Shown: positions 1-62,155 of the stretch, in pieces
How the letters are laid out: the number at the start of each line of letters is the position of its first letter
How positions within the stretch are numbered: position 1 is the first letter of the stretch
From: Tribonema minus
Lineage: Eukaryota; Sar; Xanthophyceae; Tribonematales; Tribonemataceae
Direction: 5' to 3'
Length of the DNA stretch: 64,000 nt
Assembly (NCBI GenBank): GCA_017506865.1
Contig: JAFCMP010000534.1
Location: 434,001 to 498,000, forward strand
Program-made: the position numbers and the translations under genes
Notes under the pieces: model-generated
The model's database searches: none
What the model was told of the DNA's origin: nothing
Seen by the model: the letters and a program-made list of their open reading frames with translations, nothing else

Positions 1-3000
1 TTGAAGTATGCGCTCTTGCCTACGGTCACTCGTGGCTGCTGCCGGCGCTCCTATGAGTCGCAGGTGTTTGGCCATGACACCATCTTCAGCATCGCCGTCA
101 GCATACCTGGCAATGGAACACACGCATGCATGTCGTGATATTGAGCGGGTCATACTTACACACACTCCAAATACTTCGATGTATATTTCAATGATAAGTG
201 TTGATTCATATATCAGTGTACGCTACTCATGTACTATGTGAGTAAGTGCTCAAATACTCGCATTCCAGATCATACCTACCTACATGCAGCGTATCAACTG
301 CTGTCACATGTATAGTATGTGACGCAAATACTGGGCATCATAAGTCATTTGTATATGTATGGTCACCTAATGGTCCTTATTTACCTGACATCACGGGCCA
401 TCATACCTACCTACCTACATATTCTGATGGCTACATACATACCTAATGTCATAGGTGCCGTCCCTGTTGACCATGCGCACGCGCCCCTTGAACCAGCGCC
501 CCTTCCCCTTATAGTTGGCTTCAACATCGTCGCCAACGTTGTAGGAGGGAGTGGCATCGCTAGTTGCACGCCCACATTCGCCGTTTGCAACAGTTGAAGT
601 TGAAGTTGGTTTGCTGCCGACCAGTCGGATGTGACGTGCCTCCACGCCGTCTTCCGCGTCGCCATCGGCGTACCTAGTGGCAGCAGCGTTAAAGTGAGAG
701 GTGTGCTCTCATGGATGAGCACTGCTGCTTTGAAGCGCTAGAAGGCAGCAAGAGCACATGCACGCCTAACCCTAATCTTAACCCTAACTCTACTCCTAAC
801 ACTACTTCCGCGTTGGTGTACCATTGGCTTGGTATGTATGGATGATTGGCTTGACTCGCCCTGTTGCAAAGTCAACATCGTTCTGGCCGTGGACTCTATT
901 GCTTGCCCCTCGATGAACTTGATGCCAGCACTGCAGCAGGCCAATGCCAGCACTGCAGCAGGCCAATATTGACGGCACAATTGTGATAACGCCAACGGCA
1001 TCATCACTGCCAGCATCCTCTCGATAATGCATAGGCATCGCAATGGTGGCGCAGCCTGCGACCTGCCCATTTCCTTGCTCGCTGCAGAGCAGGTTAGCGT
1101 GCTGCTGCGGCTGCCAATGTGTGCACAAGCACGGTTGTGCTCAGTCCCCCTACTTAGGGCTAGGGTTAAGGTTAGGCCTAACCCTACACCTATGTATTCC
1201 ATAAGGTGATGGAAGTACAAGTACAGCGCACTTCTCAGCTGACAACACCTACAAAACTCTGTCGGCCACGCAGGCATGGGGTGGCCTTCCGGTTGTGCCT
1301 CAATTCCGCAGCATTGGCAATGCTCACCTACCCATGTATCACCTGATGGTACTTGCCTACCCTGACCTCACGAACCAGCACACCTACTTAACCTACAGGT
1401 GCTGATGGTACATACATACATCTGTAGGTAGCTTAGTAAGTGTTTGTGCAAGCTTGAGCTATCCCAGCGGGGAAAGCGTGCAAAGGTTCAATAGGAGCAT
1501 ACGTGATGTATACGCAAAACAGCCCAAGGGTTTCCGCCCCCAAGCGGAAGTGAATCAAGCATGTACATGCATACCTACCTACCCACACTTTACATACTTC
1601 ATACATACATACCTGACGTCATATGTGCCGTCCCTGTTGACCATGCGCACGCGGCCCTTGAACCAGCGCCCCTTCCCCTTATAGTTGGCCTCAACATCAT
1701 CACCCACGCCGAACGTTTCCAGGACCTTTCCCCGCGCGTCAGCGCTCGCCCCCGCAGCACCCCCTACGCGCCGAATGCTCTTGGCAGCGATGCCGGCTTC
1801 AGTGTCGCCATCACCCAACTGAACGTCGTAGGTACCGTCGCTGTTGGCAAAGCGGATGGTGGCGCTGAGCCAGTCGGCCTTGCCGGTGAGGTTAACTTCA
1901 ACGTCTTCCCCAGCGCGGAACTTGTCCGGCGCCGCTGCTGACGCTGCGGTGGCGCGGCTGGCTGTGGCGCTGCTGCTGCTGTTGCCCGGGACCTGCACAT
2001 AGCATCCGTAGTCGGAATTGATTGACGTGTGCACTGGAAAGGTTTTACAGGCCGTGGGATGGCAGGCAGGGCACAATCAAACAGAGCAACGCACAAAGAA
2101 AGCTCTGATGTAATGTTGTGTTGCCGGCTGTAAAAGCCGATGGCTGCTTACCAAAGCCCAGTGTGATTTGGCCACGCTGCCAACTCCCCCCGGGGCTTGC
2201 AAGAAGTAACCATTCTACACCTTGTCCGCAAGTGAGTCGTCAGAGTGTTATTTGCCACGTGTAGTTTGAGATGCAGCTCAGCTCACTGACGATGGCACGA
2301 AGCAGTGAGAGCTATGCAACTCTTGAAGACGACAACGACTCGGCAAAGTTTTGCATGTGGAACTGCACACAGTGATGCAAGGTGAAGGCCTGTGAGCGTA
2401 GTGTGGGACATATGCAGAACTCGGGTTCATGACACAGGCCACATCCGCAATGAGCACTCCTGCCAAAAGAGCCAAGAACTGCCCAAAGTGCATCCTTCGA
2501 GCAAAGAAAACGACTAAGAACACAAGACAAATTGGCGCTCCATGACATCATTCCAATGATGACAGTGAGCAGACAGCACGTATCACCCACCCTATACACC
2601 CACTGTAGATAAGCGCTGCCTCCACATTGGGCTGAGCACTGCCTCAATGGCAAGTTGCAGTTCAAGGGACATCTGCCCATCACACGCATGCATGGCTCTG
2701 AGCCTGCCTACCTACCTGGTCAATGAGCTTAGGTCAATGAGCGCTGCCCCAGTGCTGGGCTCCCTGTACCTATCTACCTTTCTGATGAGCGCTGCCTCCA
2801 CGTTGCGATGCCTACCTACCTATTCTCCTGTTAAGCGCTGCCTCCACAATGCCTACTTACCTACACTTCTGATGAGCATTGCCTCGACGCTGTGCTCCTT
2901 GCACCTCCCTGCCTACCATTCTGTTGAGCTCCGCCTCTCCACTTTACGTTGCCATGCCTACCTACCTACCTACCCACCATTCTGATGAGCGCTGCCTCCA

Positions 3001-6000
3001 CGATGCCATGCCTTACCTACCTACCTTTATTGTGAGCACTGCCGGGGAGGGACGGAGCGAGCAAAGAGAGCAATCAACGCCATCGTCACTACCGAAGTTG
3101 CTCACTCAAGGCCTGAGACGCTACACGCTACCGACTTCACTGCTATTGCGGCAGCAACGGTAGGTAGGCTTTCACTTATTTGGGTTAGGGTTACTACCCA
3201 CCTTTCTGATGAGCGCTGCCTCCACGCTGGGCTCCTCATCCCCATCCGCATACCGCACCATGAATGTGCCATCGCGGTTGCGGCGCATGACGGTGCACTT
3301 GAACCAGCGCGATCGCCCCCCGAATCGCGCCTCTACTTCGTCGCCGACTTGAAACGTCGCCACCTCCAGGTTGGAGTCTGAGGGCTTGCTCTCGAGCCGT
3401 TCGGCGGCGCGCGGCTGCTGCGTGCGGCGGATGTGACGCCCCTCTACGCCGTCTTCCGCATCGCCATCGGCGTACCTGTTTTGTGTACAATATGTCAATG
3501 AGTCTTGAGATGGCGATGTATGCTTCAAGTGAATGCGTAGTTGAAGTACATGCGGCGGATGTGACGACCCTCTACGCCGTCCTCCGCGTCGTCTTCAGCG
3601 TACCTGTTTCGTGTACGATGCGTTCATGAGTGTTGCATGCTTCAAGTAATCACATACTTGGAGTACATGCGGCTGATGTGACGCTCCGCTACGCCGCCAT
3701 CGGCGTACCTTGACCAGTTCATGTAGGATATGGTTATGAGGCCTAGGGTAGGCAGGTTTGCTCTGCTGGCACACCTGCTTGAGTGGCGGGAAGCCTCTGA
3801 ACACAAGCACAACGCTGCACAGTGCAGCATGCGCTGTGCGAGCATCACAGGGTGTGCAATGTGGCTCCTTGTTGCTCAACAGCTCAGCATGTACTAGCGT
3901 GACAAGTGTCTGCGAGTTGCGCATCAGTCACACGTACTTCAACTGTAGATGAAACTGCAATAGACATGTTCACTTCAACACACGCAAGTACCTGACGTCA
4001 TAGGTGCCATCGCGGTTGACAGCCCTGATCTTGCCCTTGAACCAGCGCCCCTTCCCCTTGAAGTTGGCCTCAACTTCATCTCCAACCGCCAGCGCGCGCC
4101 TGTCCTCCACGTCAGACCCCGCGCGCCGACGATCGCTGTCTTTGGCTAGCGCTGTTGCAGGCGCGCCGCCGCTGCGCGAAACCTGCATATGATGTAACAA
4201 GTGTGCGCTTTAGGCTATATTTATACCGTTGCGACGCATGGGAGTGTGCGTCAGAGTGGGCATGTGGCTGCGCATTGCTGTGTCGCTGTGTGCGTGTGAC
4301 CTGATGAGCACTGCCGCCTACCATTCTCACAAGCGCCGCATCCATGCTGGTATGCATTCCAACCTACCTACCTTCTGATGAGTGCTGCCTCCACGCTGCC
4401 ATACTTACCTGGAGCTTTCTCATGAAGCCATGCCCACGTACCTTTCTGATTTGCGCTGCCTCCACGCTGGTATGGTTGCCATGCCTACCTACCTACCCAC
4501 CTTTCTGATGAGCGCTGCCTCCACATCTGACATACAGACTTACCCCTCTGACGAGTGCTGCCTTCACACTGCCATGCCTACCTACCTACCCTTCTGATGA
4601 GCAGTGCCACGCTGGTATGGTTGCCATGCCTACCTACCTACCCACCTTTCTGATGAGCGCTGCCTCCACACTCGTCTCCTCGTCCCCATCGACATAGCGC
4701 ACAAAGAACGTCCCGTCGCGGTTGCGGCGCATGACGGTGCCCTTGAACCAGCGCGCGCGCCCCCCGAACCGCGCCTCCACTTCCTCCCCAACTTCAAAAC
4801 CTGAAGTTGCCAGGGCATCTCCGTCCGACTCCAGACCCTTGCTATCAAGGTCTGCTGCGCGGCCGGCGGCGGGGCGTTTTCCGGGGGCCAGGGAGTCGTC
4901 GCTGGGGTCGCGTGTAACTGTGGTTTTTAGGGGGCGGATGCTGCGCGCGGGGACGCTGTCTTCCGTGTCGCCGTCGGCGTACCTGCAGTCATTTTGGCAC
5001 GAGGGGGGGTAAGTGGGTATGATTGCCATGTATGTACTTACTTACTTCCGGTCAAAGGGCGCAAACCCTAGGCGAGGGAAAAAATATGCAACTCTTGTGC
5101 TCGTGTCAAGCTATGCATGTACTTCGAACATACATATGATCAATGTAGAACACAAGGCAGCGTCGCTTGCTTGCGCTGTGCGCAACACTGCTTATAGGGC
5201 GACTGTCTTGCGGGGGATGACACTGTCGGCATCGGTACACAGTCAGATTTACCCCTATGCCCTCGATGCCTTGCTTCACGAGCTGATGTTTGAACAGCAC
5301 ACGCACGCACCTGACGTCATAGGTCCCGTCGCGATTCACCCCCGTGATCTTCCCCTTGAACCAGCGCCCCCGCCCCCTGAAGTCAGCCTCAACTTCATCC
5401 CCCACCTCAAGCGCGCCACCATCGCGCGCACGGCCACTGCCTGTTGCCGCTACTGCCGCCGCCGGTGCTGCGCGCACGTTTGCTGCCTCTACGTTGCTCT
5501 CCTGTTCGCCATCGGTGAAACGCACGTCGTACGTGCCGTCGCGGTTGCGGAAGCGGATTTTGGCGGGCGTCCACGGCAGCCGGCCACGCACCTGCATACG
5601 CATATACATACATACGGTATGAACCCATGTTACGTACGCTAAAATGCTTGCGCACTGACTACTGTGGATATGGTGTCACTGTTGGACTCGTGGCCAGTTG
5701 CTGCAGCAGCGGCGACCACGGATCTTGGCGGGGTCCAAGGCAGCCGCCGACGGACCTGCATACGCATATACGTACAGTATGTATGTATGTATGTATGTAT
5801 GTGATAGGTGTACATTTAGGGGGTGTGGGACATAGAGATGTAAAGACGGTCCCCGTGCCTGGCACCCTCACTCAATCAGCACTCGCACTACACTTGGGTT
5901 ATCATTCATGCGCAAAACCAATCAAGGCGTTGAGTCATGTGGGTGTGCCTGTCTCACATGCCTGCTAGAAAGCCCAGGATAACGTGTTTGTATATTGAAT

Positions 6001-7503
6001 GCCAGATAAATGTGAATATGTGTTGCGTTCATGACGTCCTACACTGCTAAGGTTAGGGTTACGCCTGGCCCTAAGCTTAGGATTAGGGCTGGTCCTAAGC
6101 TTAGGATTAGGGCTGGCCCTAAGCTTAGGGTTAGGGCTGGCCCTAAGCACGACGTCACAGTTGCGGCAAAGACGCGCTGCAAGCGCAATTATGAGGTATC
6201 ATACTTCGCAGTACTTCATGCGCGTGTTTGATGAACAGGACTTGAGCAAATGTCCATGGCAACGTGGCCATACAGTTTGGGTTGCTTTGGTATGATGACC
6301 GAGAATGCGACAGACACACGCAACACAAGCCCCGAAAGCAGCAGTTGCTGCGAATGATGTGGCCGCCAGCTGGTACAGTCATTGCTGAGCGTTGCTATGA
6401 TCATGCTCAGCTTCTGTGTCATGTTACGCACCCATTGTCCGCAGAGCTCCATCTATGAATGACATTTGCGCCTCGGAGCACTGCCACTCCCCGCGAGCCG
6501 AACAACTATTGTGGAACCAAAGTTTGAACAGGCGCTGCGGCCTATAGTAACTCTAACCCTAACCCTAAACCTAAGCATGAGCATCGTGTGACTCATCCAC
6601 TCATCCCGTGCACTGCCGCTGGAGTACTGATTTGAGATGACTAAGTCGCATCTGACATGCCAGCTGCCAGACGCACTGCGTATGGCGTATGACGTTATCT
6701 ATACTTCTGGAGTATTTCGCTCATACGCAGATGATGACAGCGCTCATACCTCAAGTACTTGAAGTTACCACTGAAGTTGCCCAAGGGCATTCCAATGTGA
6801 CCATAGCAGTTGCTGCGAGCACATAGCTTTAGCCTTAACCCTTACCCTATGTCGTGCTGCTCCCGGCAAAAGTTTCACTACCTCACAAAGGCAACCATGA
6901 AGGTACTATCATGCATATTTGCTGAAATTTGAGAAGATGAAGTTGCACTGCGTACATATATACATACCTTGGCCTCCACAGAGTCGCCGCTGGCAAACAC
7001 CGCCGCCGCCGCCGCCACCGGCACGGCACTCCTGCCGCCCCCGCTGCCACCGCCATCGCCAGGCCCTGCGCCCGCAGCACTGCGAATGTTCCTAGGGCTC
7101 AGCTTCGCCTCCTCGTCGCCATCATCGTATCGCACGTCAAACGTGCCATCCGCATTGGACCCCACGATCCGCGCGGGGAACCAGCGCCCCTTCCCCCTGA
7201 AGTTGCACTCCACCTTTTGCCCGAGCCTGAACCCTCCCCCTCCCCCTCCCCCACCCGCTGCTGCGGAGCCGCTACCACGCCTGCTACTAGGCGATCCTGG
7301 CCCCGCTGCCGCCGATGCTGCCGCCGCCGCAGTGGGCCTAATAGACAGGTCACGACCGGTGGCAGCGCTCATACCAGAGCCGGAGCCGCGCCGCATACCC
7401 GTGCCTGCTGTGCGTATGCCGCTGTCGTCTGAGGCGAGGCCGCCGGAGCGGGGTCTTCGGGGGGACAGGGGGTCGTCATCGCTCTTGGCGTCGGCGCCGC
7501 CGC
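1..7503 (-). CDS. Multi-Tudor (agenet-like) repeat protein, partial at the left edge
   Basis: Exons in coding order are 7503-6968, 5591-5311, 4982-4646, 4182-3992, 3475-3202, 1992-1613, 673-443 and 106-<1; each junction is phase-consistent. At least nine domains of about 50 residues follow the pattern 'VGDEVEA.(F/Y).G(K/R).RWF', 'RDGT(Y/F)DVRY', 'DGD.E..V....IR', a Tudor/agenet-like beta-barrel usually associated with reading methylated histones or arginines. No enzymatic domain is visible, and acidic and Ser/Ala/Gly-rich linkers separate the domains. Boundaries alternate between phase 2, which cuts a domain at the 'VR|YADGD' point, and phase 0. Exons 5591-5311 plus 4982-4646 resemble 4182-3992 plus 3475-3202, so a two-exon, two-domain unit has been amplified. 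The start is unresolved: the first clear exon has an acceptor at 7504-7505, with an internal ATG at 7396. Chromatin binding is inferred from the fold only. Confidence 0.85.
2609..3045 (-). repeat. Donor-side exon-edge array (Tudor exon 3475-3202)
   Basis: About seven copies, spaced roughly 50 bp apart, of the last 15-25 bases of the exon plus its donor. The + strand core is TGATGAGCGCTGCCTCCAC, for example near 2784, 2830, 2872 and 2981, next to TACC(T/A)ACC, which is the donor in reverse. The real exon end is at 3202. The copies are intronic. Confidence 0.85.
3548..3716 (-). repeat. Acceptor-side exon-edge copies (Tudor exon 3475-3202)
   Basis: Two copies, at about 3548-3606 and 3664-3712, of the exon start that encodes the 'YADGD..DGVEGRHIRR' segment, each preceded on the minus strand by its own acceptor-like AG. 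They lie upstream of the real acceptor at 3476-3477 and carry small deletions. Confidence 0.85.
4310..4612 (-). repeat. Donor-side exon-edge array (Tudor exon 4982-4646)
   Basis: About six degenerate copies (near 4317, 4374, 4443, 4500, 4545 and 4590) of the exon end encoding 'VEAALIRK' plus the donor. The + strand core is TTTCTGATGAGCGCTGCC. The parent exon ends at 4646. Confidence 0.85.
5659..5722 (+). repeat. Interspersed element, truncated copy
   Basis: The 5' half of the recurrent element (CTACTGTGGATATGGTG, then GACTCGTGGCCA and GCAGCAGCGGCGACCACGG). The copy stops where the exon-edge copy at 5718 begins. Confidence 0.8.
5718..5770 (-). repeat. Acceptor-side exon-edge copy (Tudor exon 5591-5311)
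   Basis: One diverged copy of the acceptor and first 35-40 bases of the exon that starts at 5591 (the 'RGRLPWTPAKI' coding stretch), including the following GCATACGCATATA intronic context. It abuts a truncated copy of the interspersed element at 5659-5722. Confidence 0.8.
6045..6150. repeat. 24 bp tandem repeat built from telomere-like sequence
   Basis: Three or more head-to-tail units of 24 bases of the form CTTAGG(A/G)TTAGGGCTGG(T/C)CCTAAG. The unit ends are inverted copies of each other, so each junction makes the 12 bp palindrome CCTAAGCTTAGG. It lies in an intron of the Tudor gene. Confidence 0.85.
6548..6578. repeat. Interstitial telomere-like run
   Basis: A short CCCTAA-type run with imperfect flanking units, inside a Tudor-gene intron. 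Confidence 0.8.
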
Positions 7504-7554
7504 GGCTGCGGAGGGGGGGGGGGGGAGACGGGGGAGTTCTCTTATTATATTAGG

Positions 7555-7830
7555 TGGTTTGCGAGGACAAGTGAAGGTGGCAATGGGACAGGGGGGCGTC
7601 GTCGCTCTTGGCGTCTGTGCCGCCGCGGCTAGGAGAGGGGGTGTGTGTGTGTGGGAGAGAGGGGGGAGTTCTTTGATTATAGCAGTGGTTTGGTGGGACA
7701 AGTGAAGGCGGCAAGAGGGGCGGCGGTGGTGCACACAGCGCAGTTTGTAAATTATTTGTTTGGTGGGACAAGTGAAGGTGGCAAGGGGGGTGTTGGTGGT
7801 ACACGCGGCACAGATATGAAATTAAAGGAT
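7555..7830 (-). repeat. Acceptor-side array upstream of Tudor exon 7503-6968
   Basis: Three or four blocks repeat the sequence around the acceptor. Exon-like text (GTCGTCGCTCTTGGCGTC) recurs at 7595-7635, and the flanking segment GGGACAAGTGAAGGTGGCAA recurs near 7570, 7697 and 7768. They are progressively degraded away from the acceptor. Confidence 0.7.
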
Positions 7831-8570
7831 TGATGGGATAAGTGAAGAGGTTGCACTGTCTGTCTCCGCCAATTTGCTTTCAAAATCCGCAGGCTGGTGT
7901 GTTTACGCAGTCCGACGCCATGGGGATGTTATGCAGGAACCAAAAAATGAGTTCTCGCTGTGCGTATGTAGTTGCCATTGAGCTGCCGTTTACATCGAAG
8001 GTCTGCGCAATGTTTTCAAGAAGAAAGACAATGGCTGAAGCTTTGCAAAGCTGCTGCTGAACCAACTGTCAATCACTGCAAAAGTGGCGCAGCTATGACG
8101 TCGTTCCATCTTCATGGAGAAATCATGGAAAATCATCAATGCCATGCACACTTTCCTGCATTGTCAACAACAGTGCAGACCTGGTAGACAGGATACTAAA
8201 TGCATGGTAGCCATCAGCTTACAAAGAAGCAATGGAATGACTCATTCTGCTTAACAATCAATGTGCTGGGCTGCGATGCGCGTTGATTGTTATCGCTCCG
8301 CATGACGGACGTGATCCCATTGAAATATACGCCAGCATATGCACCAACACTGTGTTGTCGAGGTAATGGGTATGGCCAACCATTCTGTGGGTGCACAAAG
8401 CATATGATGTCGCCTGCACACACATCTCCATCTTGGCAACGCGCCCAAGGCAGTCGTGAAGTGATGCGCCAACAGGATTTTGCAACAGGATTCAAAAGCA
8501 AGCGCAGCTGCAGTATGGTTAGCCTCTACCCAGCACAGCACTTACTTCAATTGCGCAAACGCTCACATAC

Positions 8571-9449: not shown

Positions 9450-12400
9450 TCAGATGAACTGGTTCTTCTGGATGGGTTTGCCGATGCTGTACACCTGCGC
9501 AGGCAGCAGCAGCGGCAACGGGGGCAAAAAATGCGTTCAGTCAATGCGGCATGGGCATCGCTGCACGCGGCGCTGTTGCACCTCTGCAAAAGAGCATGTA
9601 GTAGAGTCCAGGTCACTCCCCCCCACTACATGGTGCCGAGGGATTGACAAGAGTTCAAATCCTGGTTGGGACTTGCTTGGAAGTCGACGAAAAGCAGGGG
9701 GATGAGATGGACGCGGTGGAGTGGACTCTTACCCTAACCCTAACCCTAACTCTAAACGGCAGCACATGTGCATGAGGATGTCGTGCCAGCACTACAGAGG
9801 GCAAAGAGAGCATGCAGTGATACCTACACACCTGTACGCAGGCTGAGCAATGCTGCAATGCTGCGGCTCAACATAAGTCTCACCTCGAACCCAATCTGGC
9901 GCAGCGCCGCAATGTCAACGACGTTCCTGCCGTCAAAGACAAATACCTGCATACCCTATGCAGCGGAGCAATGCTGCAACTCTCACCTCGCATGCAGCTC
10001 CGCAATGTCAATGACGTTCCTGCCATCAAAGACAAATACCTGCATACAGTACTATATGTAATTCAGCGGAGCAATGCTGCAGCTCTCACCTCGAATCCAA
10101 TCTGGCGCAGCGCCGCAATGTCAACGACGTTCCTGCCATCGAAGACGAATGCGGGCTTGGCCATGGAGGCGTAGATGCGCTTGTAGTCGAGTGTCTTGAA
10201 GGCGTCCCACTCCGTCAGGACGGCGATCGCGTGTGCGCCTGCAGTTGAAGTCGAAGTTAGCGCGCAAATGCCCATGGCGAGTGTCAGCTGTAGCGGTGCC
10301 TGGCGTGTGTGTGCGGAGTGCGTTTTTACGATACTTGATGCGCCTGTCTATGTAACGAAACCGACGCTCATATCGAGCGCACAAGGCCTAACCTCACATT
10401 AACCCCAACCCCAGGTCCAACTTCCCATCCAATGCTACAGCAACCCATCCTTGCACCTTTTGACACTGGGCATATGCATTCTACAGTCATCGCCTCTGTA
10501 TTGCAAGTGGCAATGCTTTGGTCACCGTGCCACTGACTCTTTTCAACTCTGTGCAGTAAGTAAAGAGACTCCTATTCCAATTGTTACAAAAGTCGCACCT
10601 CACAGACACATCGAAAGCGACTATGGCCTGCATCGCTGGCAGCAACAGGTTTTGGCATGCCTCCTCAATTTGAAAAGTTCAACAACAAAACCAACCACAC
10701 TTCAACTCCTAAACATCAACAAGGGGGACGCACCTTCGCACGCCGTGTACGCGTCCTCCATGGTCAGTATCATGTCACTGGTAAGTGAGCCTCGCAGAGT
10801 GGTCACTTCAACAACAACACCAACCACTTCAACTTGCAAATATCAACTTCAACAGGGGGTGACACACCTTCGCACGCTGTGTACGCATCCTCCATGGTCA
10901 ACATCATGTCGCTGGTAGTCAGGCCAGGCAGCGTGGTCAGTTCAACAACAAAATCCATACTTCAACTTCCAAACATCAACATCAGAAGGGGTGACGCACC
11001 TTCCTACGCCGTGTACGCGTCCTCAGTGGTCAGTATCACATCGCTGGTGGTGAGGCCCAGCGTGGTCAGTTCAACAAGAAATTCCACACTTCAATTAGCA
11101 CAAATTAACTTCAAGAAGGAGTGACGCACCTTCGCACGCCATGTACGCGTCTGCCATGGTCAGTATCATGTCGCTTGTCGTGAGCCCCGGCAGCGTGGTC
11201 ACTTCGACGACAAAACCAACCAACGATTACTTCAACTTTTAAACTTCGACAAGGGGGGTGATGTACCTTCGCACGCAGTGTACGCGCCTCCATGGTCAGT
11301 ATCATGTCGTTGCGGGTCAGGCCGAGCACGGTCAATTCAACAATGAAACCACCCACACTTCAACCTCCAAACATCAAGGGGTGACGCACCTTCACGCCTC
11401 ATGTGCGCGTCCTCCATGGTCAGTATCATGTCGCTGGTGGTGAGCCCAGGCAGCGTGGTCTCGTTGACGCCGCATGTGTAGTCAAACTCCTCCAAGTTCA
11501 ACAACAAAGCACATTTCAACTTCCAAACTTCAAGAGGGGGTGACGTACCTTCACACGCCGTGTACGCGTCCTCCATGGCCAGGATCATGTCGCTGGTGGT
11601 GAGGCCCAGCAGCGTAGTCAGTTCAACAACAAAATCCCCACTTCAACTTTCAAAAATCAAGGGTGACGAACCTTCGCATGCCGTGTACGCGTCCTCCATG
11701 GTCAGTATCATGTCGCTGGTGGTGAGGCCCGGCAGAGTGGTCTCGTTAACCCCACACGTGTAGTCAAACTCTTCCAGCATCTGCTCGCGCGACACCTGCG
11801 GGTCAAACACGCGCAGCTTGGCGCCTTCGTCCAACAGCGCCTTGGCCACAAACACCGCCGGAGTCTCGCGAGTGTCACCTGCATTGAGCAGCAAACACGT
11901 GCAGCAGCAAAACATGCGCAGCGTTTTCAGCAGCGCTTTGAAGGGATAGAGATGTCAGCAGTGTGGCGTTCAGAAGCAAGCAGCAGCGCGCATCACGTCA
12001 AGTAGAGCAAAGCGCCTTGGCTACAATCACCGCTGGAGTCTTGCGAGTGTCGCCTACAGTTGCAGCGAGCAGCAATACGTGTGTGCGCAGCGTTACGGCA
12101 GCGCTCTGAAGCAATGGTGCTGGTGAAGTGAGCGGTGTGACGCAGCAGCGCTCAACAGCGGAGCATGCGGTGAACTCAAGAACGTAGCGGCGTGCATCAT
12201 GTCAAGTAATGCAAAACGCCTTGGCCACAGACACCGCGGGACTCTCGCGAGTGTCGCCTACAGTTGCAGCGAGCAATGCGCAGCGTCTCAGCAGCGCTTT
12301 GGAGCGAGGGTGAAGTCAACAGCAGCGCTAAGAAGCGGTGAACTGAGCATGGTAGCGAGGGAGGCGATGTTGCGGCTGCTGCTGACGTATAGCGCGAGAC

Positions 12401-15400
12401 AGCAGCCAGCTGTAGCAGTACAACGCAAGTGTGAGCGCGCCTCTGACGCACTCCGTTGACACTCGCAGTATACCTACATACCCCGCCCTCCCGCGCGGCA
12501 GTTTCATGGCTAACTGGACAGTGTCAGAGTTCACTGCTAAAGTATACACGTATCTCAGCAATACGATACTTGAAACATCAGCGCTCATCGTGCTTCAACC
12601 ACACTCACTAACTGCATCACAAGCATACTAAGAGTCTGCCATAGGCATACATCAAAAGCACCCCAACACCAACAACCAACTTCAACTCAGTGGTGTCCCT
12701 TCTCAAAGGCGAACCCCAGCAGCGCAATCTTCTTGCCGGTCACCATGTTCACCATGCGCTGCAGCATGCAATATGAAGGATTCTCCGTACCGCAAGCATA
12801 CTGATAGTCTGTCAATTATGAACAAGCACCAGGAATAAACACACACTCACCGGTGTCCTTCTTGAAGGCGAACCCGAGCAGCGCAATCTTCTTGCCGGTA
12901 ACCGTGTTAAACATGCGCTGCAGCATGTTGCGCGTGAACCGCTGCTTCTGGTAGTCGTTGAGCGCAATGACCTGGTACCAGTAATCCGCAACCTCCTGCA
13001 GTCCGAGGCTCTCACAGATGTAGACCAGGTTAAGGACGTCCTTCTGGAAGCAGCTGCCGCCGAACCCCACGGAGGCGGTGAGGAACTTGGGGCCGATGCG
13101 GTCGTCGAAGGACAGCGCGCGCGACACCTGGCTTGCAGCGAACCAGGATGAATTCATCAGAATCAACATGAATTTATCAGATTCAACTTGAATTCATGAG
13201 TGTGTCGGTGATCAGGAGCTTGGGGGGGGGGGGGACGCGGTCGTCGAAGGACAGCGCGCGCGACACCTGGCACGTACTGAATCAACATGAATTCATCAAA
13301 TCAAGATGAACTCATCGTCGCGCCAGTCAGTAATCAGGAACCTGGGGTCGGTGCGGTCGTCGAAGGACAGTACAAATGACTGCTGTCAGTGCTCGGTGCG
13401 TACTGTGCGTGATTGCTCAGCCTTGCCAGCCTAATGTAAGCGCTGAATCTCTCCACCACCAACTGTGTCAGCGCTCACCGTATCTGCCATGTCAGTGCCC
13501 AATCTCCTCTTTACCCCCCATGTCATTGCTCAGATGAAGCTGTCAGTTACAGTTGTCAGTTACGGATGTCAGTGCCCCGTCTCACCTCGTGTACGTCGGC
13601 GTCTGTGGCTTCGCACAGCGCGGAGATGGAGTTGATGGAGCTCACACGCTGGGCCAGGAACGCATTGGCCACCTGCGCACACATGGCGAGTAGGGTTGTG
13701 TTGAGCATATATGTAGCGTCAACTACAAGTAAACACAATAGCCATAGGATAACACTCAGGTCAGGCATGCGCTCAATGAATGTGGCTGCGTTGGCCACCT
13801 GCGCATACTTGAGGAGTAGGGTTGTGTTCAGCGTATGGCATTGTGCACAAGTGCATACACGCAATAGCCATGATGAAATTTGGGTATACTCTCAATGCAT
13901 GTGGCCGCATTGGCCACCTGCGCATACGTGAGAAATAGGGTCGTGTTAAGCGATGACGTGTGCCCCACCATTGTATACACAACCTTCTTTACAAGGATGT
14001 GCAGTAGCCACATGTATGTTCGCTCAATGCATGTGGCCACATCCGCCACCTAGACACACACGAGTCGGGCCGTATTCCACATCTGCGGTCATGTACATGT
14101 ACGTATACGCAATAGCCATGGGGTTGAAATTGCATTTAGGCAAGGAGGAATGCATTTGGCCGCGATGAGCATACCTGAGTAAAGTCAGAGCGCGGCGTTC
14201 GGGTCACATTATGACATTTTGAAAAGCCTTTACTACTACACGACGTTACCATATGATAGCCGAAGTGGTATACGCTAACCTAACCCTGACCGTAACCCTA
14301 ACCTGAGGGCTGGGTGTGCAGCATTCCAGATGACTGATGCATGGAGGAAAGCAGAACTGTGCAATCGCCTGCTGCAAGACTCGGCTTCTCATAGCGTGCA
14401 TTTTCCTCTCTGATGTCCTGCACGCATGTATGTCTGTATGGCCCGCTCACCTCAATGGTCTATGTCTTTCATCAGCCTTAGCAGTCATGTCCAACTGAAA
14501 AAATCTCAGAAGCAATGTAGCCGTGCGAACAGCTCAATATCCGCAAGGCACAAAGACTGCAAAGGTACAAATACAAACCACGACCTGAAGGGTCGGCCCA
14601 CTCTTGCATGCGTTTGGGGCGTGATGCTGCACCTCTTACCAGAACTTCAACTGCAAACTTCAAGGCAGCAGCTCCAGCAACCACAACAGGGCCGTACTTC
14701 AATTATGAACTTCAAGGTTTTGGATATCCCAGGCGACAAAGAGTGATGTGTACTTCAACTATGTACTTCAGCAGCATTAACCAGTTCCGAGATCAGAGTG
14801 AATCGTCTAAATCATGTACTTCAACTCTGTAGTTCAAGGGGACTCACCAGCTTGGACAGCTCCGAGGACCACAGGGATGTGGTCAGGATCCTCTCCGTGG
14901 GCACCCAGTGTGCGTATACGTCCACCAGCTGCTCATCACCATCACCAGCATCATCAGCACCACCGCACGCGTAGATGCAAGCGCACAGCAGAGAGGAGGA
15001 AAGCTCAGTTTTCCATGATTCTAACCCTAGTCCTGATGATGCAGCTCGTTTGCACAGACTGCACGCAGTGCTTTCTCTCTGTCGAATGAAACAAAAAAGT
15101 CAAGTCTTCTTTTGTTTACACACTTTGGAGGCTACAACAAGAGGCCACTGCGCCATAACCAAGCCCATCACCTTCCTGGTTCACCAACTTCTCGAAGTGG
15201 TAACAGTACATACATGCAGCCCTTGAGAGCTTGCGACACTGCTCTGCTGACATACATGTGCAGATATCTCCTCAAATGTACAACACTTTACAATGCATAC
15301 AGTTGTCCTTGCAGCTTGTGCTCGTCAATATGTCAAGTTCAAGTACAGCAAGGCCTAGCATTGCTGTCTGGTGCCTACTTGGGCTAACCGGACCAGAACT

Positions 15401-18093: not shown

Positions 18094-18569
18094 GTAAGGG
18101 AGTGAAACTGTGTGTGTCCTGTTTTGTGACTAGGTCAAAATGCATGTGTTGTAGTTTACCCTATACCAATGCCACGTGGCACAGCACTTGCTCACAGCAC
18201 ATATGAACACAGACACACAAACACGAACACACACACACACATGTGCACGACAGTGTTATGTTGGTCAAGTAGCATTGCCTTTTCGGTGGAGAGGGGAAAG
18301 AGGGGGGGCCTGCTCCTAACCCCCTATGGGGATCCAACCCTGAGGGGGCCAAATTTGGCCCCCCCAAACCCCAAACTACCCCCCCCTTTCTCCTCTCCTC
18401 CCTCCTCCCCCTAGTCTTGACCGAAAAGATAGGGAGTGGTGGGTGGGTATCTCTCTTTTCGCTCCTCGTCGCCTTGGCTGTTGCTCCTCGCGTGCCTCTA
18501 ACACTACGTAAGTGAAGGTACCGATGCTATCATGTCGGCTAGTTGCGTCACACTTTGTGACCCCCCGAC

Positions 18570-18767
18570 ATGGGGAACTCTTGCATATTTCAAGTGCCCC
18601 AAAAACTTATTTTGTCAAGCCAAAACATCGCCTTCAGATGCCATATCCACAGCATTAGGGGAGGTGTCATGGGGAACTCTTGCATATTTCAAGTGCCCCA
18701 AAAACTTATTTTGTCAAGCCAAAACATCGCTTTCAGATGCCATATCCACAGCATTAGGGGAGGTGTC
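18570..18767. repeat. 99 bp tandem repeat, two near-identical units
   Basis: Units 18570-18668 and 18669-18767 differ at one visible base (GCCTTC versus GCTTTC). 99 is a multiple of three, so one plus-strand frame runs through both as a 33-residue repeat. No family match is recognised and no gene is called. Confidence 0.95.
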
Positions 18768-44900: not shown

Positions 44901-45325
44901 GTTCCCACTGTGCAGGAGAACCCTAACCCTAACCCTAGCCTAGCATCATTTACGCAAGGTCTGCCTGCCTTGTCCTACACCCACTGCGTGCGCTGTTGTC
45001 ACGCCAACAGACACTCACTCCGTCACCAATTCTGTGCTGCGCAGGCGTAATGGACAACGTCCCTGCTTCGCGCGGCTACACTGGCGGCTTCACCACCAAC
45101 CTCATGGAAAAGGACCTGTTTCTGGCACTGGCGGCGGCGCGCGAATCGCACAGCTCAACCCCAATGGGCGCTCTCGCGCACCAGCTCTACGCCCTCATGC
45201 AGACGCACGGCAGCGGCGCCAAAGACTTTTCGGCGGTCATGCAGCTGATTGCAGGCGATGCATTGCCAAAACCTGATGGCACAGCCGGCGCAGGCGCCAG
45301 CGGGGGCAGTACGAAGCCTGTGTGA
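41944..45325 (+). CDS. HIBADH: 3-hydroxyisobutyrate dehydrogenase, mitochondrial, 5 exons
   Basis: Oxidises 3-hydroxyisobutyrate to methylmalonate semialdehyde with NAD+ in valine breakdown. Exons: 41944-42076, 42240-42296, 42989-43300, 43955-44215, 45045-45325; every intron is phase 1; 347 residues. An Arg/Ser-rich presequence (about residues 1-34) without acidic residues suggests mitochondrial import. Family motifs: NAD-binding 'GFIGLGNMG' (37-45), 'DSSTIAP', substrate loop 'APVSGGVPAAAAGTLTF', catalytic Lys202 in 'GAGCVAKLCNN', and 'RCWSSESYNPYPGVMD' across the last junction. The C-terminal 'EKDL.LAL..A' and 'KDFSAVMQLI' regions fit. A short Gly/Ser tail precedes the stop. Introns 2 to 4 hold an interspersed element fragment and exon-edge arrays. 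Confidence 0.96.
42881..42945 (+). repeat. Interspersed element, 3' half
   Basis: ATTGGTGGAAGGCATTTGCG, then CTCGTCACCTACAGCTCTAG and GGATCTTTCAATTCG, in intron 2 of HIBADH. More diverged than other copies. Confidence 0.8.
43334..43395 (+). repeat. Degenerate donor-side exon-edge copy (HIBADH exon 3)
   Basis: Diverged copy of the exon 3 end (GGATGCGCCAGCGAGCGACG versus the real GGACGCGCCGGTGAGCGGCG), with GGCGTGCCCG shared. The real exon ends at 43300. Confidence 0.75.
43588..43629. repeat. Interstitial telomere-like run
   Basis: TTAGGG-type units, about six with one interruption, in intron 3 of HIBADH. Confidence 0.85.
43698..43880 (+). repeat. Acceptor-side exon-edge copies (HIBADH exon 4)
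   Basis: Two copies of the acceptor and exon 4 start (GGCGGCACGCA.CCCGC, coding 'GGTQPAFERAVP') at about 43703-43765 and 43818-43875. The real exon starts at 43955. The farther copy is the more diverged. Confidence 0.94.
44290..44650 (+). repeat. Three-copy donor-side array (HIBADH exon 4)
   Basis: Copies of the exon end coding 'NTSTARCWSSESYNPYP' plus donor start near 44293, 44430 and 44556, about 130 bp apart, each followed by a TTGAAGTATGTTTTGCCAGG-like spacer. The real donor is at 44216. The middle copy has lost part of the exon piece. Confidence 0.95.
44918..44944. repeat. Interstitial telomere-like run
   Basis: CCCTAA repeated about three times in intron 4 of HIBADH. Confidence 0.85.
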
Positions 45326-47169: not shown

Positions 47170-50100
47170 TTACCGCAGGCTGGGCATGGCGGGGAGGGGC
47201 AGATGACTGGTCTTGGTAGTGATAACCTCGTCAATAAGGCCATACTCCAGTGCCTCGTAGGGGGTCATGAAGAAGTCGCGGTCCGTGTCCTCCTCAATCT
47301 GCAGGAGGGGCAACGCAGGCACGTTGGGATTCTTGTGTCAGCTGGCGCAGAGCAGGTGTTTTCTTGGAAACCATTGCTGTCAGAATTGGTTGAATGTTTG
47401 TTTACTTTCTTTGCTACCAGCTCCAGCACCAGCGTTGACGTTGGCAATCCACAGCATCATTATATACAACACATGAAACATTTTGTTGCGCTATTTCACA
47501 TAAGTGCACCAGTGCTACCAGCAAGAGACAATTGCTTCAGCGAGAACAAACCGAGGAAGAGCGCTCTGGACCTCCACACATGAAGTGCATATTTGCTGAA
47601 ATTCAGCTTCACAACAGATACTGCTGTTCAAGTACTTACTTCAAGTAGAAATACACACCTTCTCAAAAGGCTGGTCCGTGTAGCCCGCCATATAATGGAC
47701 GAGCGGACGCTTGATGAACAGGACACCTTAGGCCTGGATCACACCACCTTCAGTACCTCACAAACAAATACCTCCTCCAAGTAGAAGTACAAATCTTCTC
47801 AACAAGCTTTTTCAGTCATATAGCGGTTGAGCAGGCTCTTGCTGAACAAAATCTCCTCGGCCTGGATTATACCAAAATCACAACATACTTCACATACGAA
47901 CATCTACTTCAAGTAGAAGTATACACCTTCTCTACAGGCTGGTCCGTGTCGTCTGCCTTGTGGGCTCCTGACGAACAAATTCCCTTGGGGGTGGAAAAAA
48001 CATCATACCTTACATTCAAATACTTACTTCAAGTAGCAGTACCTACCTTCTCAACAGGCTGGTCTGTGTAGTCCGCCATGTAACGGTTGAGCAGGCTCTT
48101 GATAAACAGGATCTCCTTGGCCTGGATCTCAATGTCCGCAGCCTGGCCCTGTGCGCCTCCCAGCGGCTGCAGTTGCAGCGGCGGAGACACGAGCAAAAGG
48201 GGGAGGCACCAGTGGCTGAGCACTGACACTGACAAGAAATGCAACATCATGGAGCTTATCGCAAATGGACGACCAGACTTCTGCTAATAAGGCCGTCTTG
48301 CATACGCAGCCTGGCCCTGTGCGCCTCCCAGCGGCTGCAGTAGCAGCGACGGAAACACGCACACAGGAGGAGGCATAAGTGGCTGAACAGTGACACTGAC
48401 AAGAGACGCAACGTCACGGAGCTTATCGCAAAAGCATCACCAGCAGACTTGTGCTCATCGTGATATGCCAAAACCGCAGGACTTGCATGACCTGCAGCAG
48501 CTGCGGTCAAAACTCTGAGACAAGCCTGCTCTTTGTGTGCCAGCGACGAGCACCCTGCCCTCCCCTCCATTAACCAACACCAACCATACACTCAGTAAAC
48601 AACAACTTGCACTTGCGCTTTGCAGCGACTCATCATCATCCATGCAGCTACAGAGGTTGTAACGTACAGGCAGGACATGGTCAGATCACAGCTCCGGTAA
48701 ATATTTAGTAGATATGTAACCCACCTGGTGGATCATCATGCGCGCGTTGGGCAGAGACTTGCGCTTGCGCTTTGCAGCTATTCATCCCTCAAACAGCTAT
48801 ACAACATGTCACATACAGCCAAGGCACGGTCAGATCATGGCCGCACGAGTAGGATACCTAAACACAACTCCGCAGATAACTCCGCAGATAGTATACTAGA
48901 TACTCAATAGATATGTAACCTATCTGTAGACATTCAGTAATGATGTGACCCACCTGGTGGATCATGATGCGCGCGTTGGGCAGAGACTTGCGCTTGCCCT
49001 GTGCCCCTGCGCCCAGCAGGAAGGCCCCCATTGACGCCGCCATGCCAAAGCAAACGGTCGCCACATCGCACGGGATGAACTGCAGTTCGAGGAGCACAGG
49101 TCGCATGCAGTGTGGATAGCTGTGTTTGTAATTCATGCAACAAGTTGTTATCTAAAGGATCGGCAACGCTGTTTGAACAACTTCAAGACAACTACTGTAG
49201 TTGCAGTGACACAGGAATGTGACGCAACTGCAAGAACTGGCGGCAGGAATGTCACTTGAAGTAAACAGTGTCACTTGAAGTAAGCAGTGGCTCAAACATT
49301 CTGAGCCACGCAGAAAGCCATAGCGCAACAAGAGCAGAAGCTCACTGTTGTGTTGCATGACTTACCAAAGCTCCCAATCAAAGATGCAACAGCACTGCAA
49401 CAAACAGCTGTTGTGTGCCACGCGGGCGCTGTTCATATACATACCCCGTTTGTTGTGCGCAACGCGGCAGTTATGCATGAATAAAGCTGATGCATCTGCA
49501 ACTGAAGTCCATGCGACACGATAGACGTGCGCATTGAATGTATGCATGTGTTATGCGCTAGATAGCACCATGCTACACACCCTAACAGAGCGTAAAGGTG
49601 TTGTTGGTTGGCGGGCAGTCAGTTCACTTTCAAATGCTTGCGTGCTGTGTTGTGGCAAGTCACTGCTGCCGAGTGCCGGATGCAGTGCACAGCAGTTCAA
49701 TTGCTGCGAAAAAATGGAAAAAACGTACCGACGATCGGTGTTGGTGTCAGAATGCAAAAGATAGGATCTAATGGCTGCTCGTGATTGCTAGTATCCTTCA
49801 CGAAAAAAGATCAAAAGATCGTAGAGCTCTAGGTAACAAGGGATGGTTGCCCGCAGGTGCCTTCCACCAATAACCGTGGTCGCCGCATTGGCCACGAGTC
49901 AACAGTATCACCATATCCACAGTAGTCGAAAAGACTTGTGTGTGCAAGCTTTTAGCGTTCTTCACGTTTGCGAGAGATGCAAATGTTCAAGAGGAGCAGA
50001 GCCCCATGTTGTGCTGAGTGAAATGACCTCCAGCAGGTACAGCCCGCAGGCACGTCAGATTAAGCAGTGGCACACACCACTCGCTGGTGGATGTGTACAC

Positions 50101-59784: not shown

Positions 59785-62155
59785 ATGGTTTTTGCCAAGG
59801 TCATCAGCGAGAGCTTACACATCCTGGTGTTCCCAGCAGCTCTCATCTTTTTGAAGGTAACGCATGTAACTGCGGAGTCACGAGTTTACCTTCGTATTTG
59901 TGCTGCTGCTGCTGCAAGGACATGATAACGAACATGTGGTCAAGCACATTGTCCATCATGATTGCAAAACGTCTCGTTGCAGCAAACCATTATGCTGCTG
60001 CAGCCACCAGTGCTGCTGCGCTGCTGCTCGTGCTCAAATGTCGCTGAAATCATGGGTGTTCGGGCAGCTGGCCAGGCGCATCCACGGTAATTGAATCTGC
60101 TCCCCCCCCTCCCCAATCTCTGTTGCCTTAGGTAGCGCATGAGCTCATACCGCTGCCCATATTTGGGCTCCTGGTGGCGGGTGCGGCGGGTGCGATAGGC
60201 ATGTGGTGGAGCGGGCGCAAGTCACCAGCAGCTGAGATTCTGGACAAGCGGGCTGAGGCGAAGGCGGAGAAGTTCATGAATGAACTCACCAGGGAGGACG
60301 ATGCGCGCAAGGCAGCAGCTGCCAAGCGGAGGGCGTCCGCGGAGAGGAAGGCTGCGGACCGGGCCAGGGTGAGAGTCTGAGTCTGACGCTGAGGCGGCTT
60401 GTGGTTATATATAGGCGCAGCAAGCCAAGTTGGTGTGGTGTCGATCGCGCACGAGATGCCACCATCACTGGGCCACAGACTTGTGCTGAGGGGAAATGAG
60501 GGGACTGCGCGCTGCGCACTGGATGGTATGCACGACAGCTGGTCAGTTGCGCCAATACGTTCATAGAAGTACAGTATGCAGTACTTCCGTCTTTTTAGCT
60601 GTGGACCAGCCTGTGGTGTTCAAAGTCGCGGTCGCACTGTTGTGTCTGGCGCTCATGTGCGGCGCTCTTTGATGCTCTGGGGCCCTGTGCATAGCATGAG
60701 GCTCACCAGAACCTCAGCGTTGTTTTTTTGGCAGCCACATCGGCGATGACGTTGGCCAAGTGACTCGTGGCGTGAGGCACATTGGGCAGCAGCGGCGACC
60801 ACGGTTATTGGCGAAAGGCACTTGCGGCTAACCATCCTTTGTCACCTAGAGCTCTACGATCTTTTGATTCGTTTCCATGTATCATTATGGCTCTGGACAG
60901 GCTGTTGTAGGAGAAGCTGTCTCAGTGCACACGCGGTAAATGATGTCTGCAATCATGCTCATGAACATCTCTCCACGTGCCATCTGCATCGCTTCGCACG
61001 CTGCGCAGAACGAGATGAAGAAGCTGGCTGCAGCTAACCCTAACTCCAACCCCACCCCCCAGCCCTGACCGTAACTGTAACCCTAACCCTAACCACAGAA
61101 CGAGATGAAGAAGCTGGCTGCAGCAGAAGCGGAGAAGCAGTCAAGAGAAAAGGCAGAGGCAGCGGGCAAGGCAGCGGACGCGGCAGCAGCAGCCACTGCT
61201 GAAGTGCTAGCGCCGCCACCATCTGGGAAGAAGTCAAAGAAGAAGAACAGCAAGGTGAAGTATACTTTTATGTGCCTGGCTGCCTTATTGTGCACTGCAC
61301 TCATGGCCCTCTGTTTTCTGGCAAATCGTGTGCACAAAGCGTAGATGCATGCTTTAACGTGCTACGTACCACCCAACTACTTCAAGTTTGCGGCAAGGTG
61401 TGCGCTTGAGGCTGATGGCGCATGGATGAAGTCAGCGAACTTCAAGTTCATTTGCTCGCACTCACGGGCAGACGACATTCAAGTTGGCCAGGATGTTGCC
61501 GCTGCTGCACCAGCTGAAATGAGCGGGCATCAGTAAATATCAACTAAGCACACAGCTTGAGTGCCTAACCCTAGCCCTAACAAGGCACCGCTGAGCTGTG
61601 CTGCATACCTGCGTCAGTGACCACCAGCAGATTGTAGCACTTGCGCTTGCTCGGTTGTGGAAGTGCTCCGTCTGTACAGCACTCTGTGGTCTAGCCATTG
61701 CAGCAGCTGTATCATTGCAACTGGTTCATTGGCGACAATGGCGCACTTGCCAATATTGGCAATATAGTATCATGCTGCAAATGTGATGCAAACTCCACAC
61801 TTGACTTTCTGTGACGCTGCATTTACCATGAGTTCTGACCCTGTGCGACCAGTTCACCCTTCCTGGTCCAATTTCTCCACTTCGTGCCTGGTGCATCAAC
61901 CATCAACCAGTTCTGTTGCACAACATCTGCTAGCTGATCTCTTGCCATGATTTCATTCCCTTGGCGTCAGATTGTTGACATGTGTGTGCCGCCTGTCCTG
62001 TGTGTGCGTTGCAGTCTTCCAAGGGGGCTCCATCTGGTGCCAGCTCGCCTCAGAACGGCAACGACACGGCTGTGATGAGCGATGATGACGATGACGCCTT
62101 CTTGATGCGCGCCGCGGCCGCGGAGCAGGCGCGCAGGCGCACGTCGCGCAAGTAG
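59785..62155 (+). CDS. Small membrane protein with charged coiled-coil tail, unknown family, 4 exons
   Basis: Exons: 59785-59856, 60132-60368, 61099-61254 and 62015-62155, all phase 0; 201 residues from ATG 59785, with in-frame ATGs upstream at 59677 and 59737. Two hydrophobic segments near the N-terminus ('LHILVFPAALIFL' and 'LPIFGLLVAGAAGAIGMWW') are separated by only 'KVAHELIP', giving a possible hairpin or two short helices. A long Ala/Lys/Glu/Arg coiled coil follows ('EILDKRAEAKAEKFMNELTR', 'NEMKKLAAAEAEKQSREKAE'), then 'PSGKKSKKKNSK', an acidic 'SDDDDDAF' patch and a basic C-terminus 'RRRTSRK'. It looks like an organelle-membrane protein with a cytosolic tail; no family recognised. Intron 2 contains an interspersed element and an exon-edge copy. 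Confidence 0.65.
60761..60874 (+). repeat. Interspersed element, copy
   Basis: TGACTCGTGG, then GCAGCAGCGGCGACCACGGT, GGCACTTGCGGCTAACCATC and GATCTTTTGATTCG, in intron 2 of the membrane/coil gene. Confidence 0.9.
61005..61034 (+). repeat. Acceptor-side exon-edge copy (membrane/coil exon 3)
   Basis: CAGAACGAGATGAAGAAGCT and the following GGCTGCAG are an exact copy of the acceptor and exon start at 61096-61123. Both copies are bordered by CCCTAA-type runs (61037-61094). Confidence 0.93.
61037..61094. repeat. Interstitial telomere-like run
   Basis: Imperfect CTAACC(C)-type units filling the space between the copied and the real acceptor of exon 3. Confidence 0.85.

Follow-up and report, generated by a model that had tools for sequence, protein, structure and literature searches.

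How do introns come to hold imperfect copies of the very exon edges that they adjoin? Intron lengthening is usually attributed to transposons and drift. A first-pass annotation of a 64,000-nucleotide stretch of Tribonema minus DNA (the window) had claimed that about 30 of 84 junctions, in seven of nine genes, are accompanied by 1-7 extra copies of 15-95 bases of the exon edge. For the present analysis, gene models were built with a self-trained gene finder (HMM) in eight retraining rounds, under a decoy-collapsing rule by which the shorter of two similar exons was dropped, and copies were found by self-comparison. Models with fewer than 450 coding nt and low-complexity pairs were excluded before counting, and a copy was counted when at least 12 exon nt reached the splice site. 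The sample comprised 276 introns with 552 junctions: 59 introns in the window, 172 in C1:200001-400000, 8 in C50 and 37 in C150. A psaA-like fragment on C168 was identical at 45 of 45 positions to PDB 9m4f and at 44 of 45 to 9ygv, an entry assigned in PMC13219633 to the brown alga Macrocystis, so that kinship with brown algae is likely. The results showed that 61 of the 552 junctions, spread over 52 of the 276 introns (about one in five), carry 112 copies, with an exon part of 13-88 nt on the donor side and 12-74 nt on the acceptor side. In the window, 59 introns were modelled, and of their 118 junctions 29 carry copies (15 at donors, 14 at acceptors). These 58 copies, 36 donor-side and 22 acceptor-side, number 1-7 per junction, which comes close to the earlier count. 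Copies are present in five of eight window models; because the first of these models fuses at least three genes (a Tudor-like gene recognised by eye, UGDH and a gene for a DUF2828 protein), the window hits fall in about seven genes. Confinement to the window, which would have spoken against a general process, was not observed, since copies were also found in 28 of the 172 C1:200001-400000 introns and in a light-harvesting gene pair described below; there were none in the 8 introns of C50 or the 37 of C150 (0/45 together). The window is richer than the remaining sample (24/59 versus 28/217 introns, Fisher p = 7e-6), and genes differ strongly in copy content (permutation p = 0.0002).

Table 1. 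Duplicated exon-edge arrays in the window, with one interior intronic duplication for contrast.
Gene	Feature	Window positions	Strand	Remark
Tudor-like (by eye)	array touching donor and acceptor	3423..3706	-	
Tudor-like	donor-side array, 4 copies	4319..4670	-	
Tudor-like	acceptor-side copy	5554..5776	-	
Tudor-like	acceptor-side array	7462..7847	-	
UGDH	donor-side array, 2 copies	9878..10150	-	
UGDH	donor-side array, 7 extra copies, most at any junction here	10676..11776	-	human UGDH without room for copies
UGDH	acceptor-side array, 2 copies	11836..12312	-	
UGDH	donor-side copy, 77 exon nt	12685..12927	-	
UGDH	acceptor-side copy	13089..13316	-	
UGDH	acceptor-side array, short exon part (12 nt)	13662..13952	-	
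UGDH	donor-side copy, 44 exon nt + 8 intron nt, 92% identical	15700..15896	-	
UGDH	donor-side array, 3 extra copies at this junction, period ~117	16590..16875	-	
	contrast: young interior intronic duplication, 99 bp x 2, 99% identical, no junction touched	18569..18767	-	
DUF2828 gene	acceptor-side copy, 50 exon nt	20347..20585	-	gene by Pfam
Vacuolar sorting receptor (VSR)	donor-side array, 3 units of ~115; real donor after 29774	29719..30012	+	gene by Pfam
VSR	donor-side copy, abutting, unit 135, period 134	31090..31372	+	in-frame stop in copy by eye
VSR	acceptor-side array, 4 extra copies; real exon start about 32143	31392..32201	+	
VSR	donor-side array, 2 extra copies; real donor 32454 or 32462	32407..32754	+	
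VSR	acceptor-side array	33030..33428	+	
VSR	donor-side array	33461..34061	+	
VSR	acceptor-side array, 2 extra copies	35636..35975	+	
VSR	donor-side array, exon part <12 nt	36031..36297	+	outside the 112 counted copies
VSR	acceptor-side array, 2 extra copies	36390..36661	+	
3-hydroxyisobutyrate dehydrogenase (HIBADH)	acceptor-side array, 2 extra copies; real exon 43955-44215	43697..44019	+	PDB alignment
HIBADH	donor-side array, 3 extra copies, period ~130; real donor after 44215	44162..44676	+	PDB alignment
ClpP	donor-side array, 3 extra copies	47629..48127	-	
ClpP	acceptor-side copy	48137..48458	-	
ClpP	donor-side copy	48605..49004	-	

The nearest copy at each junction is direct and lies at a median distance of 131 nt, mostly 50-250 nt, from the original. 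The duplicated unit regularly crosses the splice site, with an exon share of 0.10-0.71 (median 0.36; 51 junctions), and intron sequence past the site is also shared in 91 of the 111 testable copies. Short alignments had hinted at copies that end exactly at the splice site, and this was rejected, as 26 of the 31 copies with an exon identity of at least 0.93 share intron sequence. Of the 61 nearest copies, fifteen adjoin or overlap the original with a tolerance of 5 nt, and in nine of these unit minus period is -3 to 9 nt, the larger values coming from multi-copy arrays; the other 46 do not abut the original, so that later deletions or fillers must be assumed. At one break CCCC was noted by eye. 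Telomere-like repeats were considered as marks of the breaks and were not established as such (4/112 outer breaks versus a 1.6% background); telomere-like hexamers numbered 6.7 per kb in array introns versus 4.4, p = 0.11. Tandem arrays, junction and interior together, make up 12% of the sampled intron bases and 24% of those in the window. Introns with copies have a median length of 776 as against 434 without, which is no proof of growth because longer introns offer more room.

Which of the competing sites is used was judged from protein homology. Human UGDH (5w4x, E 1.4e-176) and HIBADH (PDB 2i9p) both align near full length to the proteins predicted from the exon-attached sites, interrupted only by gaps of 1-4 residues. 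As these homologs leave no room for the copies, the exon-attached splice site is taken as the one used, in keeping with the earlier claim that the real, in-frame site is the exon-proximal one, and neither gene gave any sign by protein homology of an added piece of exon or intron. A further comparison was provided by light-harvesting paralogs. The gene pair on C1 (~1.237-1.242 Mb) contains three arrays with 2, 3 and 2 decoys, and the pair on C79 has single copies at the corresponding places. The C1 and C79 exons differ at 21 sites. Of the decoy cells at these sites, 30 agree with the C1 exon, 9 with the C79 exon and 3 with neither. The paralogs thus likely represent the states before and after duplication, in a comparison that includes no outgroup.

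The specificity of the copies was determined by a comparison in which the last or first 40 exon bases were matched to the exon's own intron at a score of at least 30; exons of at least 40 nt were used, giving 235 donor and 237 acceptor of the 276 + 276 edges. Own-intron matches were obtained for 28/235 donor and 26/237 acceptor edges, as compared with 0 donor and 1 acceptor match for reversed sequence and 0.0 matches per round on both sides for length-matched introns of other genes. Whole-exon duplication left no trace in exons of at least 160 nt, where inner 40-mers gave 0/117 and 0/120 matches (0/237 together) and the far edge of the same exon against the intron on its other side gave 0/107 and 0/107 (0/214 together). 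These controls exclude a chance origin of the copies. Introner-like or other transposable elements inserted in introns might account for the many introns affected and for the differences between genes, and were rejected because the copies match their own exon edge and find no counterpart in the introns of other genes; inverted copies were also nearly absent (1/235 donor and 0/237 acceptor, 1/472), and we regard this origin as extremely improbable. An assembly artefact is just as hard to credit, given that the copies carry substitutions and indels (70-100% identity, few identical), that an array-free paralog exists and that arrays occur on both C531 and C1. The copies might instead be functional, serving as alternative exons or splice sites or as decoys under selection. 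The site is indeed kept in most of them (GT or GC in 61/69 donor copies, AG in 34/43 acceptor copies), and differences between decoys fall mainly at the third codon position (0.106/0.122/0.242). However, the splice dinucleotides are no better preserved than exon bases: decoy GT identity is 0.87 and 0.87 versus 0.84-0.93 for exon positions, and decoy AG identity 0.93 and 0.88 versus 0.86-0.98. Decoy splice sites thus decay at about the neutral rate, kept no better or worse than the exon bases beside them. Of the 26 copies whose exon part contains a gap, 21 are shifted in frame (21/112 overall). Neutral serial copying with third positions 1.3-1.5x as mutable gave simulated values of 0.20-0.21, which is only a partial fit, so that some copies may be under weak coding constraint; coding constraint as a general account was rejected, since the third-position excess is mostly matched by such copying. 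HIBADH and UGDH had also suggested that copies are mini-exons between AG and GT, and this too was rejected, the flank enrichment being absent or weak: at the outer break of donor copies AG is nearby in 22/67 versus a background of 0.22, and CAG/TAG in 15/67 versus 0.13 (a weak excess), and at that of acceptor copies GT occurs in 9/42 versus 0.25. With outer breaks that are not clearly splice-like, and homologous proteins that leave no space for additional exons, a functional origin appears highly unlikely.

A more serious alternative is that tandem duplication strikes uniformly, with exonic events purged and junction events tolerated and easier to detect, so that junctions are in no way special. 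The spread of breaks within the unit fits this reading. It was simulated with the same detection, in six runs with present intron lengths and six with introns half as long. Observed arrays numbered 61 at junctions versus 11 in the interior (61/72), and the simulated junction share was 161/450 (0.36; P = 2e-17) with present lengths and 336/554 (0.61; P = 1e-5) with half lengths, which shows how far shorter ancestral introns lift the expectation. In UGDH, VSR, HIBADH and ClpP, the four homology-identified genes, the exon edge is contained in 22/22 arrays (P = 2e-10 or 2e-5). The simulation falls short of the observed number of copies per junction (112 at 61, as compared with about 1.1), a point against the explanation favoured below. 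An exon-blind test, confined to introns of at least 150 nt (223/276 used), found a splice site no more than 12 nt away for 26 of 55 intron-only arrays, compared with 4.9 expected if uniform within the intron. A splice site was touched within 5 nt by 24/55 arrays versus 96/406 simulated with present lengths (P = 9e-4), whereas against the half-length simulation (186/459, P = 0.37) there was no excess, and the analytic version of this count gave p = 0.17. Young arrays show a weaker excess, with 20 at junctions versus 4 in the interior at identity cut-offs that differ between the two groups (P = 3e-6 or 0.017). Together, these data indicate that junction arrays exceed the uniform model, clearly for present intron lengths and less strongly if ancestral introns were half as long, and we consider a uniform process unlikely as the whole account, though by far less so than the preceding alternatives. 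The first-pass annotation had proposed that the spliceosome keeps using the proximal site; this accounts for the tolerance of junction copies, but not for the scarcity of purely intronic arrays (11/72 versus 39-64% simulated). A bias tied to junctions, either in how arrays arise or in how they are retained, also seems necessary.

The best explanation, and in our judgement a probable one, is recurrent tandem duplication across the junction, with the exon-attached site in use, decoys that decay, introns that lengthen and an excess at exon edges. Repeated duplication of this kind, as proposed earlier, is borne out by copies that are direct, edge-specific and inclusive of intron sequence, by the paralog case and by homologs without room. 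Short segments across the exon-intron junction would be duplicated head to tail, with breakpoints varying on both sides. In other systems, staggered breaks repaired by end joining are known to yield head-to-tail duplications, which makes this a candidate route here. The spliceosome would keep the exon-attached site, presumably by exon definition, and because of this choice the other copy would end up inside the intron as a frozen snapshot of the exon edge. Copy and splice site would then decay near neutrally, as synonymous sites of the real exon continue to change. Recurrence at one junction would build arrays of up to seven decoys and may lengthen the intron over time, and exon edges would gain or retain duplications at a higher rate than the uniform model predicts.

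The class of event is not unknown, because boundary-spanning duplications have been described. In the account of the potato RdRp gene given in PMC4974935, one tandem duplication across an intron-exon boundary copied the splicing signals and created a new intron and exon piece via an activated cryptic donor; the 112 copies found here likewise derive from units that span the boundary, but they reflect many events rather than one and lie within introns already present, and protein homology points to no additional exon. Tandem genomic duplication is also a reviewed route of intron gain, in which, as outlined in PMC3443670, the two ends of a new intron arise from an exonic AGGT segment. Local head-to-tail duplication of splice signals is common to both cases, whereas the unit here already holds intron sequence, the copies are intronic with a donor or an acceptor, and no intron is gained. 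Fill-in at staggered breaks by CST and Pol alpha-primase produces small tandem duplications that resemble these in being short and head-to-tail, hence its interest as a route; in the excerpted account of PMC8355091 no link to splice junctions is drawn. Introners, presented in PMC9860276 as dispersed families that create introns, similarly affect many introns of one genome, whereas each copy here matches its own locus, with no exon-edge match in other genes' introns. For large-intron genomes including Ectocarpus, many decoy sites have been proposed, with exons marked by exonic splice enhancers (PMC4476162, PMC12477816); as summarised there, decoys follow intron number and size, while the decoys described here reproduce the true site together with its exon surroundings. 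The earlier claim that no described intron-growth mechanism matches was accordingly too broad as regards junction-spanning duplication (PMC4974935, PMC3443670), and what is new is the recurrence and the longer introns without a new intron. Recurrent, intron-lengthening junction duplication was absent from the listed hits of literature searches aimed at it.

As a bolder idea, to which we give rather less than even credence, lineage-specific junction-biased tandem duplication may be an engine of intron growth, with exon edges as hotspots (or shelters) for ~130-nt duplications that would each leave a dated snapshot and a decoy site, tolerated since the splicing machinery would recognise each exon as a unit. 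A mutational process linked to the edges of exons would be unexpected. The arrays form a natural series of competing splice sites in near-identical exon context and thus offer a direct test of how the spliceosome picks the true site, and the snapshots are coding-sequence fossils with the potential to be dated. Junction duplications fill introns with decoy splice sites and probably lengthen them.

The gene models, predicted from sequence alone and in some cases fusing genes, were obtained with a two-strand Viterbi gene finder that was seeded with the HIBADH (3-hydroxyisobutyrate dehydrogenase), VSR (vacuolar sorting receptor) and ODAD1 exons and retrained in eight rounds. The training and sample DNA comprised 304 kb, i.e., the window (C531:434001-498000), C1:200001-400000 and 20 kb each from contigs C50 and C150 of the same genome (158,181,000 bases, 554 contigs). 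Any internal exon that was a shorter copy of the one beside it was discarded and models with <450 coding nt were omitted, leaving 276 introns. GC replaced GT at ~10% of the predicted donors (HMM models, sampled introns), which may partly be over-calling.

The first-pass annotation had claimed that introns carry extra copies of their own exon edges with the splice site (decoys), and this was borne out when exon edges were compared with introns and with controls. Exon-edge 40-mers matched their own intron with a score of at least 30 at 28/235 donor and 26/237 acceptor edges, while control comparisons in the same sample gave zero or nearly zero matches. A more sensitive search recovered copies at 32 donor junctions (69 copies) and 29 acceptor junctions (43 copies), distributed over 52 of the 276 introns. 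The copies were re-found in 24/59 introns of the window and were not confined to it, since 28/172 introns on C1 were also affected; the same search found none in the 45 introns on C50 (0/8) and C150 (0/37). Array load varied among genes (permutation p = 0.0002). Tests on the sampled exons showed that only the intron-adjoining exon edge is copied, only into that intron and in direct orientation, with inverted matches at 1/472 edges. Introns with copies were longer (median 776 vs. 434), and arrays covered 11.8% of intron bases in the sample and 23.7% in the window.

Each copy contained 12-88 nt of exon, and the intron side was homologous as well in 91/111 testable copies. The nearest copies were spaced at a median of 131 nt (interquartile range 114-168, overall 45-405), abutting or overlapping the original at 15/61 junctions and separated from it by an unmatched stretch at the remaining 46. 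The exon share of the duplicated unit ranged from 0.10 to 0.71 (51 junctions, spacing up to 200), indicating that break positions are not tied to the splice site.

The proposal that the exon-proximal site stays in use held for UGDH (a UDP-glucose dehydrogenase-type gene) and HIBADH by protein homology; for ClpP and VSR, identification came from domain hits or partial matches. Proteins built from exon-attached sites alone aligned over near full length with solved structures, with gaps of 1-4 residues, and these relatives leave no space for residues that decoys would encode. Donor and acceptor arrays were nearly equal in number (32 vs. 29 junctions), a parity that would be easier to reconcile with exon-wide recognition than with a first-donor or first-acceptor rule. 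Excerpts on Ectocarpus describe its introns as long, with an autosomal median of 524 bp, and its exonic splice enhancers as resembling those of humans (PMC12477816, PMC4476162).

The decoy GT and AG were conserved about as well as exon bases, and thus show no clear sign of being either maintained or eliminated. Of the 112 copies, 26 had gaps in their exon portion, 21 of these being frame-shifting. Mismatch at codon positions 1, 2 and 3 was 0.069, 0.078 and 0.169 between real edge and decoy, and 0.106, 0.122 and 0.242 between decoys, with the seven-copy UGDH array as the main source of the excess at third positions. Such a pattern would arise if the exon went on evolving synonymously after the decoy was copied from it, and a simulation with third positions 1.3-1.5 times as mutable reproduced most of the pattern; weak coding constraint on some copies is possible.

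In a self-comparison of the 304 kb, 50 arrays crossed a junction and 14 were assigned to introns (3 of which reach the exon edge with <12 nt); 8 lay between genes and 1 was exonic. Uniform duplications were simulated with neutral decay and deletions and were detected in the same way as the real arrays. The simulated junction share was 161/450 with present intron lengths and 336/554 with half lengths (four earlier runs: 45/99 and 62/169, and 75/126 and 69/128, respectively); the observed arrays were 61 junction vs. 11 interior, and the young ones 20 vs. 4. In four homology-identified genes an exon edge was present in 22/22 arrays, two of which include <=12 nt of exon. With exons hidden, 26/55 arrays lay <=12 nt from a splice site vs. 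4.9 expected from uniform placement inside the intron. Those touching the site (<=5 nt; 24/55) exceeded the simulation at present lengths (96/406, P = 9e-4) and showed no excess over that at half lengths (186/459, P = 0.37). Shorter ancestral introns would therefore explain part of the junction excess, and junctions are probably favoured, through a hotspot or better survival.

Locations of genes, repeats and arrays
Feature	Location	Basis or content
Tudor-like gene	first gene of window	label given by eye
VSR, ODAD1-type coiled coil, ClpP, FHA protein, DUF2828 protein	window	Pfam
UGDH, HIBADH	window	alignment with solved structures
Interstitial telomere-like repeats (TTAGGG/CCCTAA)	window: 765-804, 6047-6148, ~9731-9760, 43593-43627, ~44920-44940	
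Direct repeat, 1.07-kb	24012-25082 and 25301-26370	98.9% identical; 330-bp tandem repeat inside each copy
Acceptor array, C1 light-harvesting pair	L035	decoys 1216 and 1340, real exon 1499
Donor array, C1 pair	last intron	three decoys
Acceptor array, second gene of C1 pair	L029	two decoys

Telomere-like hexamers occurred at 4.4-6.7 per kb in introns and 0.4 in exons (composition expectation 2.9); ACTTGAAGT / ACTTCAAGT was found 24 times in 155 kb of intron (276 sampled introns) vs. ~1 expected, and once in 52 kb of exon.

Light-harvesting genes are numerous (92 exon-level matches), and a duplicated divergent pair, at small loci L029/L035 on C1 and L040 on contig C79, is usable as a before/after test. 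Aligned exons of the two pairs are ~90% identical, and the C79 pair has single copies at the three places where the C1 pair has arrays. At the 21 sites differing between C1 and C79 exons, 30 decoy cells matched C1, 9 matched C79 and 3 matched neither, the cells being non-independent; a ten-base stretch common to decoys at the last donor of the C1 pair is absent from C79. Together, these data, drawn from the two pairs alone, point to gain of the C1 arrays after the split of the pairs; loss in C79 is the less likely alternative. One break in the light-harvesting pair, judged by eye, joins exon CCCC to C-rich intron, a four-base microhomology. In a scan of 11 further small loci (L027, L028, L030-L034, L036-L039), local repeats were present at L036 and L037 and none was found at the threshold used in the other nine. 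Short psaA-like fragments at L037 and L038, on large contigs, probably represent nuclear insertions of plastid DNA. A psaA-like fragment on contig C168 matches two solved PsaA chains perfectly or almost perfectly, one of these chains being brown-algal; this match and the many light-harvesting genes suggest an ochrophyte near the brown algae.

As far as excerpts of these sources describe them, a review recognises at least seven ways of gaining introns, tandem genomic duplication among them (PMC3443670), fill-in at staggered breaks can yield small tandem duplications (PMC8355091), and a junction-spanning tandem duplication was published in potato as a single case of intron gain (PMC4974935). Recurrent junction arrays lengthening introns, as the first-pass annotation envisaged, were not reported among the matches listed (3-20 per search, from totals of 3-321), mainly open-access full text judged by title and start of abstract. 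The potato case, as excerpted, is one event that gained an intron, whereas in Tribonema minus many arrays lie within existing introns.
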